Assembly: GCA_003559735.1 (NCBI GenBank)
Contig: PWKN01000125.1
Span: forward strand, 1 to 48,646
From: Bacteroidales bacterium
GTDB taxonomy: Bacteria; Bacteroidota; Bacteroidia; Bacteroidales; UBA7960
DNA: 48,646 nt
Reading direction: 5' to 3'
Shown here one piece after another: positions 40,951 to 44,847 of the stretch (position 1 is its first letter; each line of letters opens with the position of its first letter). The notes beneath the pieces are model-generated. The model was not told where the DNA came from. It did not search any database and saw nothing but the letters and a program-made list of their open reading frames with translations. The position numbers and the translations under genes were made by a program.

Positions 40951-42504
40951 TCATTTTAGTCCGGCAACAGGTTTGCCTTTAAGGCCGGCATCAATGAGCC
41001 AGGCCATAAACTCAGCAAATGGTTTTATGTCTTGCTGCACAGAAGCGCTTTCAAGGGCTTTCATATATGTGTCCCTTTCCTGCACCGGGATTACTGTCCA
41101 CGGAAAACCACCCGAAGCCAGCATGGCATTCATCAGGAACCGGCCCATGCGACCATTTCCATCCATATAAGGATGAATATATACAAAAACAAAATGACCG
41201 AGTACCGCCCGCACTCCCGCGTTCTCTTCTTTTTCCAAAAGCTCAAAAAACACTTCCATTGCCTCAGGAAGTGCCTCTTTGTGGATGGGGATATGCCTTG
41301 ACCTGGCAATGTAAACATGGTTATTCCGGTATCCGGCCAGATCAGAAGGTTTCAAAATGCCGGCACTTACACTGGGGGCAAACATCTCCCTGTACCACTG
41401 CTCATGATCGATACTTACAACTTTTCCTGCATTATCTCCATCAAAGATTTTATGTATGCTGTTTTTCACAGCCTTAAACGCTTGCCAATAGCCGCGGGCA
41501 GCGAGAGCATCGCGTTGTTGTTTATCTTCCTCATTACCACGCACAACCCAATTGCCTGACTTTACACGCTCAATCAAAGCGGGAGTTACAGAGTACTTCT
41601 CTATGGACAAAGAGTGATAAGCATCGGTAGTGTAAAGCTCTTCCATCTGCTCAAGGTAGGCTGCCCTGTTTCCAGGGATACCGGGCGAATCTGGCAGAAG
41701 CCTGGCTACCAAATGCCTCATGCTGTGCCATAAAAGTTTTATGCGATGTACATAAGGCGATTTTTCCTGCCTGTTCAATGTTGCTGTTGGCAGGATACGG
41801 AACGGGTTGGTTTCCCTTACATCATAACCGGCAGCTTTCATGATTTTCATGATGTTATCTGCAGTTTCCTCCTGCCCCATACGCCTGTATGCACCGGTAA
41901 TCCGGCCGGCAATTTGTGAATGCCCCCCATCAAGGAGCATCCGAAGCAAGTCCTGTTGATTATTTAAGATCATCGTCAGGGCTATCTGAGCTGACTTGGG
42001 ATGTTTTTCGAAAAAAGACGGACTAACATGTATAATGGATGAAAGCAGACTTACAAGACGCAATCCGTGTTTCATTTCGATCTCTGCCTTATGAGGCAAT
42101 GTCGATTTCATTGCAAATAAAGAGGTGTTGAACAACAAGCTTGTAGGAAGGTTGTTGCCTTTTGAGCTTCTGATAATCAGCTGCCGGGGCACGGTGTGAT
42201 CACCGGTATGCAACAAAAGAGATTGTTCGGCAGAGATACAGTACTCTTCACCATAACGGTCATGAAGGTACCCGGCACAAAAGCCCCAGAAAGAAACATA
42301 CCACGAAGTGCTATCGCCGGGTTGTTCATTTGGCGGAACAGATACATACCATCCCTTCACAACCTCGCGAATGAAACCTGAGTCTGCAAGTCTTTCGCGG
42401 TGCACCCTCGAAAGCTTTCCGGCCTTAATGGCAATAACTCCCCTGTCCTGAAGTTCTTTGAGTTTTTCAAGGGATTCGGATAGTTTTTGTCCAGGTGTTC
42501 CCAT
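40951..42504 (-). CDS. Fic-domain protein with AbiEi-like N-terminal half
   Basis: A 517-residue protein. The C-terminal Fic domain carries HPYMDGNGR (444-452), the full HxFx(D/E)GNGR AMP-transfer motif, so it is probably active; it would attach AMP (or similar) to a target hydroxyl. No clear [S/T]xxxE[G/N] inhibitory motif is visible. The N-terminal half starts with a winged-helix-like segment (LSRVHRERLADSGFIREVVKGWY) and EEYCISAEQSLLLHTGDHTVP, which recall the AbiEi antitoxin plan. The family with this layout is widespread, but its target is unknown to me. It follows an abiEi/abiEii pair on the same strand, with its own -7 box. Confidence 0.88.
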   Translation of the reverse strand: MGTPGQKLSESLEKLKELQDRGVIAIKAGKLSRVHRERLADSGFIREVVKGWYVSVPPNEQPGDSTSWYVSFWGFCAGYLHDRYGEEYCISAEQSLLLHTGDHTVPRQLIIRSSKGNNLPTSLLFNTSLFAMKSTLPHKAEIEMKHGLRLVSLLSSIIHVSPSFFEKHPKSAQIALTMILNNQQDLLRMLLDGGHSQIAGRITGAYRRMGQEETADNIMKIMKAAGYDVRETNPFRILPTATLNRQEKSPYVHRIKLLWHSMRHLVARLLPDSPGIPGNRAAYLEQMEELYTTDAYHSLSIEKYSVTPALIERVKSGNWVVRGNEEDKQQRDALAARGYWQAFKAVKNSIHKIFDGDNAGKVVSIDHEQWYREMFAPSVSAGILKPSDLAGYRNNHVYIARSRHIPIHKEALPEAMEVFFELLEKEENAGVRAVLGHFVFVYIHPYMDGNGRMGRFLMNAMLASGGFPWTVIPVQERDTYMKALESASVQQDIKPFAEFMAWLIDAGLKGKPVAGLK

Positions 42505-42509
42505 TGGGC

Positions 42510-42565
42510 TATTTTTATTGTTTTACGCTGTGGTATTTTTATTTTTAAACGTTGTGGCAAAGTTA
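42510..42565 (-). promoter_or_regulatory. 24-bp tandem repeat abutting the -7 box of fic
   Basis: Plus-strand units at 42510-42533 and 42534-42557 both start TATTTTTATT and end CG-T/C-TGTGG, with 20 of 24 positions equal. The -7 box TAACTTTG (minus strand, 42565-42558) directly adjoins the second unit. The repeats therefore cover the start site and leader, a place where a repressor would block transcription. The fic ATG follows 5 bases beyond the first unit. Confidence 0.65.
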
Positions 42566-42647
42566 TTAATTTATGCCGTGATAATGATATTACTTGCTGT
42601 TTTTAAACAATAGTCCCCAGGAGCTAAAAGTCCAAGCTTAAACAAAA

Positions 42648-43454
42648 TTAGATCGCGCACAACGCATCAAAATCCAAACCGTTTACATAATCATAAAACG
42701 ACGATACACGCACAGCGTTTTCCCTGTTGATTAAAAACAAGCTTATTTCATGCTCTTTTTCGCGCATGTCTGCCGTTTCAACAGTGCGAAGTATCATTTG
42801 CTTTAAATTCTCGGGCGTGGAAACATGAACCCCCCTTTGTGCCATTACCTGTTTCAGGTAAGAAAAGTCAATTTTTGCCCGTTGGCACAAAAAACTAAAG
42901 TCGTACATATCACGTGCCTTTGCCCTTTGTGTTATAACAATGGCTTTCATTGATAACAACACATTGATCACAGGCAGGTAAACAGGAAAAAACTGCCCAA
43001 AACGATTTACGTAATGCAGCTGCTTTTCATAAGGCGTTTTATTTTTTTGAATGTCGATCTTTACCCATATTTTTTTTCTCGGATCATCGAGCGTGTAGCT
43101 TTTGCTGATGTCCGGAAACTGCATCTTACAAAAGTTGTCGCTGTTGCGATAATCATGTGCTACGCTGCAAGGCAGGCCTTCATTGGAAACATGCCCGGCA
43201 ATCGCTTCAAATTGACCCCTTAACATTTCGCGATCTGCACCAAAGTAATCAAAATCCAGGTCTTCGCTGAAACGGTCAAGCCCATGGCAAAAGCGCATGC
43301 TCGTGCCACCAATAAAGACAAGTTCCTGGGCAAATCCGCTTTTGGATATCCTGTTCAACAACAGGGTTTGCAAATACTCCTTGATCACGTGCACTTTGAA
43401 GGCAGCAGGTACATGATCAGGATAATGGGCACGAAGTTGCTCAAAAGACATCAT
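42648..43454 (-). CDS. abiEii: AbiEii-type nucleotidyltransferase toxin
   Basis: A 268-residue member of the AbiEii/AbiGii toxin family. The nucleotidyltransferase core shows LVFIGGTSMRFCHGLDRFSEDLDFDY (broken here only by length), with G-G-T-S and the D-L-D metal ligands, followed by WVKIDIQKN for the third acidic residue and DMYDFSFLCQ in the helical part. AbiEii proteins transfer nucleotides to targets such as tRNA and stop growth until neutralised by AbiEi. The start overlaps the abiEi end by 14 bases, as is normal for the pair. Confidence 0.9.
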   Translation of the reverse strand: MMSFEQLRAHYPDHVPAAFKVHVIKEYLQTLLLNRISKSGFAQELVFIGGTSMRFCHGLDRFSEDLDFDYFGADREMLRGQFEAIAGHVSNEGLPCSVAHDYRNSDNFCKMQFPDISKSYTLDDPRKKIWVKIDIQKNKTPYEKQLHYVNRFGQFFPVYLPVINVLLSMKAIVITQRAKARDMYDFSFLCQRAKIDFSYLKQVMAQRGVHVSTPENLKQMILRTVETADMREKEHEISLFLINRENAVRVSSFYDYVNGLDFDALCAI

Positions 43455-44079
43455 GATGTTTAAAGATATTTGTTAGTGTTGATTCGAGGCTTTTTCGTCC
43501 TGCCTGCTGTACATATCCATACAAACGGTCTTTATCCATAGCATCAAGCATTTCATTATCAAAACGATAATCCGCAATTTGATCACCGGAAAGCTGCTGT
43601 TTGCCAAAATAAATAAAATCAAAAAAAGCCTTCTCCAGGGAGGCTATTCTTATCTGGCGCTCTGTTTGCTTTCCGGCAAGATGCAAGGTTATCTTCTTCA
43701 TGTCGTACCCGGTAAACAGCTCACGCTTTATGCGCCTATAGGAATATTCTCCGGCAGCAGTGCTGAAATGATTGGTTTTCCGTGTGCTCACCGCCGTAAT
43801 GGTATAAACGGCCTCAGGTATCAGGCTGTATTCTGACATTACAAACTCAGTGCTAATGTAGGAAGACTCATATATCTTGTTGGATATCAGCAGCTCCACC
43901 CCCTCATTACCCAGAAACTCCGAAAAAATGAAATGACCCTTGATCAGTGGGGTCACATAGCTCTTTTTAGCCCATTCGTGCAGCCTGCGCCTGTCGACCG
44001 AGCCAAATACGCCCCTGGCATCTTCATAAGAAAACACCACAAATGGATGCATTGCTTTGTAAAACTCCCGGTAGGTCAT
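43441..44079 (-). CDS. abiEi: AbiEi-type antitoxin and repressor
   Basis: A 212-residue protein. The N-terminal winged helix includes GSVDRRRLHEWAKKSYVTPL and IKGHFIFSEF; the C-terminal antitoxin domain includes SSYISTEFVMSEYSLIPEAV and RIASLEKAFFDFIYFG. AbiEi proteins repress their own operon and block AbiEii toxicity (type IV). It is the first gene of the operon, with its -7 box only 4 bases before the ATG, so the mRNA may be leaderless. Confidence 0.88.
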   Translation of the reverse strand: MTYREFYKAMHPFVVFSYEDARGVFGSVDRRRLHEWAKKSYVTPLIKGHFIFSEFLGNEGVELLISNKIYESSYISTEFVMSEYSLIPEAVYTITAVSTRKTNHFSTAAGEYSYRRIKRELFTGYDMKKITLHLAGKQTERQIRIASLEKAFFDFIYFGKQQLSGDQIADYRFDNEMLDAMDKDRLYGYVQQAGRKSLESTLTNIFKHHDVF

Positions 44080-44411: not shown

Positions 44412-44747
44412 ATGATAGTTAAAGATGAAATACTAAAACATCTAGCTGATTTTAAGACATTATGCCAAAATCATAATGTCAAATATCTATATGCTTTTGG
44501 TTCATCTACCGCTAAAAATTTCAATCCGGAAAAAAGCGATATTGATTTACTGGTTGAAATTGACTCATCTGACCCGCTGGATAGAGGGGAAAAACTGATG
44601 TCGCTTTGGGATAATTTTGAAAGCTTCTTTGGGAGAAAAGTCGATTTGCTCACCGATTCGTCAATAACAAATCCGTACTTAAGGAAAAGCATTGATTCAA
44701 CAAAGGTTCTAATCTATGACGGAAAAAGGACTCAAATATTTGTATGA
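44412..44747 (+). CDS. MNT-type nucleotidyltransferase (MntA-like antitoxin)
   Basis: A 111-residue minimal nucleotidyltransferase: YLYAFGSSTAKNFNPEKSDI continues into DLLVEID, giving the GSx(9-10)DxD active site. Proteins of this size pair with HEPN toxins; some modify the HEPN protein by adding AMP to a tyrosine and so silence it. The gene is intact. Its partner overlaps it by 32 bases and is internally deleted. Confidence 0.85.
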   Translation: MIVKDEILKHLADFKTLCQNHNVKYLYAFGSSTAKNFNPEKSDIDLLVEIDSSDPLDRGEKLMSLWDNFESFFGRKVDLLTDSSITNPYLRKSIDSTKVLIYDGKRTQIFV

Positions 44748-44847
44748 CATTCATGCTTACGATGCTATTGATGCTTCTATGATCTGGGCAATAATCAAAA
44801 ACCATTTAATACCCCTGAAACAGGAAATCAATCAAAGAATAAGATAA
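44716..44847 (+). pseudogene. Internally deleted HEPN (DUF86/HepT-like) toxin remnant
   Basis: A 43-residue frame reads MTEKGLKYLYDIHAYDAIDA, then SMIWAIIKNHLIPLKQEINQ and RIR. The first 11 residues match the usual N-terminus of HepT-like toxins and the rest matches their C-terminal end, starting at the histidine of the R-x4-6-H-x-Y RNase motif. The ~70 residues between, including the arginine, are missing. The frame is kept, pointing to a clean deletion. It cannot be an active HEPN RNase. Confidence 0.75.

Follow-up and report, generated by a model that had tools for sequence, protein, structure and literature searches.

A head-to-tail array of 24-bp repeats at the promoter of an AbiEi-Fic fusion gene, a putative operator private to the gene

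The window analysed here is the whole 48,646-nucleotide contig PWKN01000125.1 of a Bacteroidales bacterium. It carries, on the minus strand, a fic gene whose product joins an AbiEi-like half to a Fic domain, an array of direct repeats just upstream of this gene and, further upstream, an abiE toxin-antitoxin pair (Table 1). The abiE genes are neighbours of the repeat system and not part of it. Across about 28 loci we found no conserved partner gene of fic, which looks stand-alone.

Table 1. Features of the fic locus, in window coordinates
Feature	Position	Strand	Sequence	Evidence
fic, 517 aa: AbiEi-like half (residues 1-225) and class II-like Fic domain (about 270-510)	40951..42504	-		Pfam, models, Foldseek, alignment
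Array unit 1 (family phase), nearest the ATG	42509..42532	-	CACAGCGTAAAACAATAAAAATAG	Repeat searches and family phasing
Array unit 2 (family phase)	42533..42556	-	CACAACGTTTAAAAATAAAAATAC	Repeat searches and family phasing
Array unit 3, diverged, -7 box inside	42557..42580	-	CACGGCATAAATTAATAACTTTGC	13 matches to locus consensus (20 defined positions)
Possible unit 4, weak, doubtful	42581..42604	-	AAAAACAGCAAGTAATATCATTAT	11 matches to locus consensus
-7 box	42558..42565	-	TAACTTTG	Matches Bacteroidota -7 box TAnnTTTG
abiEii toxin gene, neighbour upstream of fic	42648..43454	-		Pfam AbiEii E 3e-24, PADLOC AbiEii E 1e-57
abiEi antitoxin gene, neighbour; own promoter without 24-bp array	43441..44079	-		PADLOC AbiEi E 2e-47

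Some observations concern the neighbouring genes themselves. The same genome holds a second abiEi start (L086, G000:C181:37481-37567). Its first 29 codons match at about 83-86% identity and its promoter (TATCTTTG) is similar, but its frame stops after 64 aa and it is a remnant. Bacteroidota abiEi genes (L069, L071, L083-L085) often have one palindrome just 5' of the ATG, e.g. GCATAGATAATCGA-N-TCGATTATCTATGC, which is likely an AbiEi operator of the inverted type. Beyond abiEi, an MNT-type nucleotidyltransferase gene (44412-44747, plus strand) is followed by an ORF of 43 aa (44716-44847, plus strand) that matches only the end of a HepT-like family (PF01934, E 2e-5). The two form a HEPN/MNT pair in which the toxin gene seems to have lost its middle.

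An earlier note on this DNA had described two adjacent 24-base units, equal at 20 of 24 positions, between TAACTTTG and the ATG of fic. Tandem Repeats Finder recovers exactly this pair at 42510-42557 (period 24, 2.0 copies, no indels), as does a second repeat search. On the coding (minus) strand the units read CCACAACGTTTAAAAATAAAAATA and CCACAGCGTAAAACAATAAAAATA, and the one nearest fic is separated from the ATG (42504) by five bases (42505-42509). The position of the pair is thus as described, but the array is larger: in the phase of its relatives, the -7 box falls within a third unit, and there is a questionable fourth. The position of the third unit is also a unit in two relatives, L031 and L038. 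The box matches a consensus for Bacteroidota that PMC7366714 cites. A clear -33 box was not seen in the fic promoter of the window, and no Sigma-70 promoter was found in the region. When the sequence upstream of fic is matched to itself the best lag is 24: 27 of 36 positions agree, whereas in shuffled sequences the maximum over all lags averages 19.0 (p = 0.005, the floor of 200 dinucleotide shuffles). A pattern search allowing three mismatches found no further copy of the 24-mer elsewhere in the 3.66 Mb genome. A regulon reading was dropped, since by this search the 24-mer stands at the fic promoter only.

In the protein of the window, Pfam identifies the Fic domain only (residues 390-462, E 4e-12). 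A ColabFold model built from 16 homologues has a mean pLDDT of 89.5, and a model of residues 1-235, built from 36 homologues, reaches 94.6. Two Foldseek matches of this N-terminal model fall below 1e-3: AbiEi of Streptococcus agalactiae (6y8q, E 3e-4) and Rv2827c of Mycobacterium tuberculosis (1zel, E 4e-4). VIA-align gives Z 10.1 over 218 residues with the latter and Z 8.1 with the former. According to the predicted model, residues 1-225 are a whole AbiEi fold fused to a Fic enzyme, which bears out and enlarges the AbiEi-like N-terminal segment proposed in the earlier note. The link to AbiEi rests on fold comparison, since the N-terminal profile searched against the sequences of solved structures gave only helical-repeat noise. 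Curated AbiEi models (Pfam, NCBIfam, PADLOC) have no match in the fusion protein, and the profile of the fusion protein aligned to Bacteroidota AbiEi yields an hhalign probability of 56. The AbiEi-like antitoxin domain of the fusion (residues 66-225, window 41800-42300) also resembles the nucleotidyltransferase folds MenT1 and JHP933 (Z 7-8), hinting that the AbiEi C-terminal domain may derive from a nucleotidyltransferase.

Among solved folds, Foldseek places the Fic half nearest to FICD and to bacterial Fic proteins of class II. The active-site motif HPFx(D/E)GNGRxxR is present, as HPYMDGNGRMGR in the window, with Y for F, and HPYxDGNGRxxR is kept in all 16 aligned members. Residues H444, D448, N450, R452 and R455 are invariant among the 16 homologues, every one of which scores above the Pfam Fic cut-off. 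Equally invariant in these proteins is SLSIE (298-302), to be compared with the inhibitory motif that class II proteins have N-terminal to the Fic motif, (S/T)xxxE(G/N); the position that follows is G in about half of them and K or R in the others, K in the window.

Homologues of the fusion were taken from Bacteroidota genomes, GTDB contigs and plasmids, the GTDB contigs including MAGs of Krumholzibacteriota, Dadabacteria and Fibrobacter, where binning may err. Their upstream regions were scored for self-match at lags 14-40 in a 36-nt window. Averaged over 47 homologous loci, z reaches 4.0 at lag 24 and does not exceed 0.9 at any other lag. Forty of the 47 loci have their best lag at 23 or 24, and in 37 p is at most 0.05; the set includes some near-duplicates, without which the count is 32 of 40. 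Once this pattern had been recognised, a second, independent set of 20 homologues was drawn from plasmids, most of them proteobacterial (Alpha-, Beta- and Gammaproteobacteria plus Bacteroides). It gives a mean z of 4.5 at lag 24, a best lag of 23 or 24 in all 20 and p ≤ 0.05 in 19. Hence the repeats, whose absence from homologous fic upstream regions would have told against the earlier note, are found as a 23-24 bp array in the great majority of them. By a simple chain rule the head-to-tail units number two in 7 loci, three in 26, four in 18 and five in 2. The period of 23-24 is constant among homologues while the motif diverges, each lineage having its own wording. About 15% of non-redundant homologues have no clear array (e.g. 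L003, L035, L051, L053, L055); some of these may be cases of array loss or of a different start codon, or their units may have diverged. No phage or viral homologues were found.

Stops or frameshifts interrupt several homologues (L015, L016, L018, L038, L048, L060), three of which (L038, L048, L060) retain an intact array. Gene decay is thus frequent in the family, as a costly or mobile defence-like gene would be expected to show.

The window alone, with just two well-matched copies in AT-rich surroundings, might suggest a chance duplication. The shuffles of the window's own sequence tell against this explanation, the family-wide peak at exactly 24 bp refutes it, and we give it practically no weight. 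The periodicity is also specific. At lag 24 the mean z is 0.2 for 144 promoters of neighbouring genes, where the one positive is a divergent gene sharing the array of L034, and 0.29 for nine Fic genes without an AbiEi half. Twenty bona fide abiEi promoters, including that of the window (L065), have a mean z of 0.01 and lack the 24-bp array. Since these controls lack the periodicity, the array belongs to the fusion family and not to Fic genes, to AbiEi genes or to the neighbourhood.

The abiEi control also bears on the suggestion, made in the earlier note, that the array could be an operator of the neighbouring AbiEi antitoxin, which would then cross-control fic. AbiEi proteins do bind 23-bp sites (PMC3985639), and an abiEi-abiEii pair lies directly upstream of fic in the window and directly downstream in another locus (L087, genome G045). 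But of about 28 loci only 2 have such a pair beside fic, whereas the array is found in nearly all, and many of the array-less abiEi promoters have a single palindrome instead. Cross-control is thus unsupported and we regard it as very improbable. As the identity of the operator is deduced from comparison, one might also speculate that the array binds some other host protein, an activator or a nucleoid protein, unrelated to the Fic fusion. But the array tracks the gene family over Bacteroidota and Alpha-, Beta- and Gammaproteobacteria, whether on a plasmid or on a chromosome; these hosts have no single regulator in common. It is also missing from the promoters of neighbouring genes. This makes a role of such a protein just as hard to credit.

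The mapping of promoter positions covered the Bacteroidota arrays. In the Bacteroidota members the units fit one phase, with a skeleton near CAC(A/G)-C--AATAA--TA---T-G. Of 29 arrays, 16 contain TAnnTTTG where shuffling predicts 2, and most of these 16 boxes end at one phase of the first unit, with the array downstream. Many Bacteroidota arrays thus begin at the -7 box and extend across the predicted start site. A different phase is seen in L031, L038 and the window, where the box sits within unit three. In many members the predicted -7 box precedes most of the units, which would therefore be transcribed; the array might then act at the RNA level, controlling translation or attenuation from the leader, rather than as a DNA operator. 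Yet the leaders fold no better than shuffled sequences (z -0.49 in the window, 0.21 in L033, 0.25 in L113 and -1.24 in L115), the fusion protein has a winged-helix DNA-binding fold, and in the window the -7 box itself is inside a unit. We thus find a function in RNA quite improbable.

The array is most probably the operator of fic, bound by the AbiEi-like winged helix of the fusion protein in an autorepression private to the gene; we put the probability of this reading at about 0.8. Autorepression is the simplest interpretation for a protein that includes an AbiEi module and whose own promoter bears a 24-bp array, and the distinct operator wording of each lineage argues that the control is private. 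The AbiEi-like winged helix would bind the 24-bp units. Most simply, each unit would take up a single protomer, and neighbouring protomers would sit next to one another in the same orientation, as suggested by the head-to-tail order and the constant spacing. The array lies across the -7 box or immediately downstream of it, so that the bound protein would block RNA polymerase or its escape, keeping the enzyme scarce. The array, its conservation and its position are observed, and the AbiEi fold is predicted by modelling; binding, the ratio of one protomer per unit and repression are what we infer. Self-repression by the Fic protein, as the earlier note had proposed, is strongly supported by this comparison, through the arrays found in most homologues and the AbiEi fold. 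A specific co-variation of operator and winged helix was considered and dropped: the correlation with operator wording is r 0.38 for the winged helix and r 0.49 for the Fic domain, and operator similarity, which follows the general relatedness of the proteins, has no significant further association with the winged helix (r 0.15, p 0.056 in a partial Mantel test).

One might go further and see here a one-gene, toxin-antitoxin-like family crossing phyla, in which the array is also a DNA-borne brake that holds the head-to-tail bound protein inactive. If this were true, loss or replacement of the DNA, as in plasmid loss or phage attack, would derepress the gene and free the enzyme. We consider this extension rather unlikely.

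Class II is the largest class of Fic proteins. Almost nothing is known of the function and control of its members (PMC9755527). The fusion forms a widespread subfamily. Conjugative plasmids of Bacteroides and Rhizobium carry members of it, as do the chromosomes of many Bacteroidota, and each lineage has a readable putative operator of its own. Neither the fusion family nor the arrays turned up in a search of open-licence papers. Dozens of matched protein-operator pairs would provide a direct and cheap test of DNA recognition of the AbiEi type, and the array is a promoter signature by which the fusion family might be annotated. A family member is within reach in a model commensal: BT_RS24275 (L116), on the conjugative plasmid p5482 (NC_004703.1) of Bacteroides thetaiotaomicron VPI-5482, whose array units AAAAACGAGTATTTGCAC adjoin TATTTTTG.

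AbiEi binds 23-bp sites as a monomer and represses its own promoter, and its operators are inverted 23-bp repeats (PMC3985639, PMC7319586). The earlier note had invoked this precedent of paired repeats of about 23 bases. The size of the sites agrees, but the repeats are inverted there and direct here, and number three to four in most relatives. If our reading is correct, AbiEi operators would extend from inverted pairs to direct-repeat arrays. AbiEi of S. agalactiae (type IV abiE, PMC3985639, 6y8q) shares with the fusion the fold over the N-terminal 225 residues, as modelled, including the N-terminal winged helix, and the promoter-overlapping sites, of 23 bp there and 24 here; it is an autorepressor, as we infer the fusion to be. 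In the fusion family, by contrast, the AbiEi half is joined to a Fic enzyme, most loci have no AbiEii partner, and head-to-tail direct repeats of 23-24 bp, usually three or four, take the place of the inverted pair. Words shared between the arrays and the S. agalactiae AbiEi repeats are not above shuffled controls (p 0.73; a few 8-mers do match, e.g. ATACCACA), and a common operator word was rejected. Rv2827c (PMC7319586, 1zel), the best structural match to the N-terminal model by VIA-align and likewise a known autorepressor, has four 23-bp sites overlapping its own promoter, each bound singly. Unlike in the fusion family, these sites form two inverted-repeat pairs with gaps of 13 and 4 bp, and the partner toxin is a DUF1814 protein, not Fic.

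On the Fic side, class II proteins SO_4266 and BT_2513 (3eqx, 3cuc) and FICD have the same Fic core and an N-terminal inhibitory helix in the position of the putative one here, but they lack the AbiEi half, and no 24-bp array is known for them. CccR of Yersinia pseudotuberculosis, which belongs to class II and represses its own promoter, sets a precedent: a Fic protein carrying a DNA-binding domain can repress its own gene (PMC9755527). Its HTH is of another kind and C-terminal, with Fic N-terminal, whereas the fusion has the AbiEi half first and Fic last. CccR also differs in its operator, two 10-bp inverted repeats 26 bp apart, and in being a T6SS effector.
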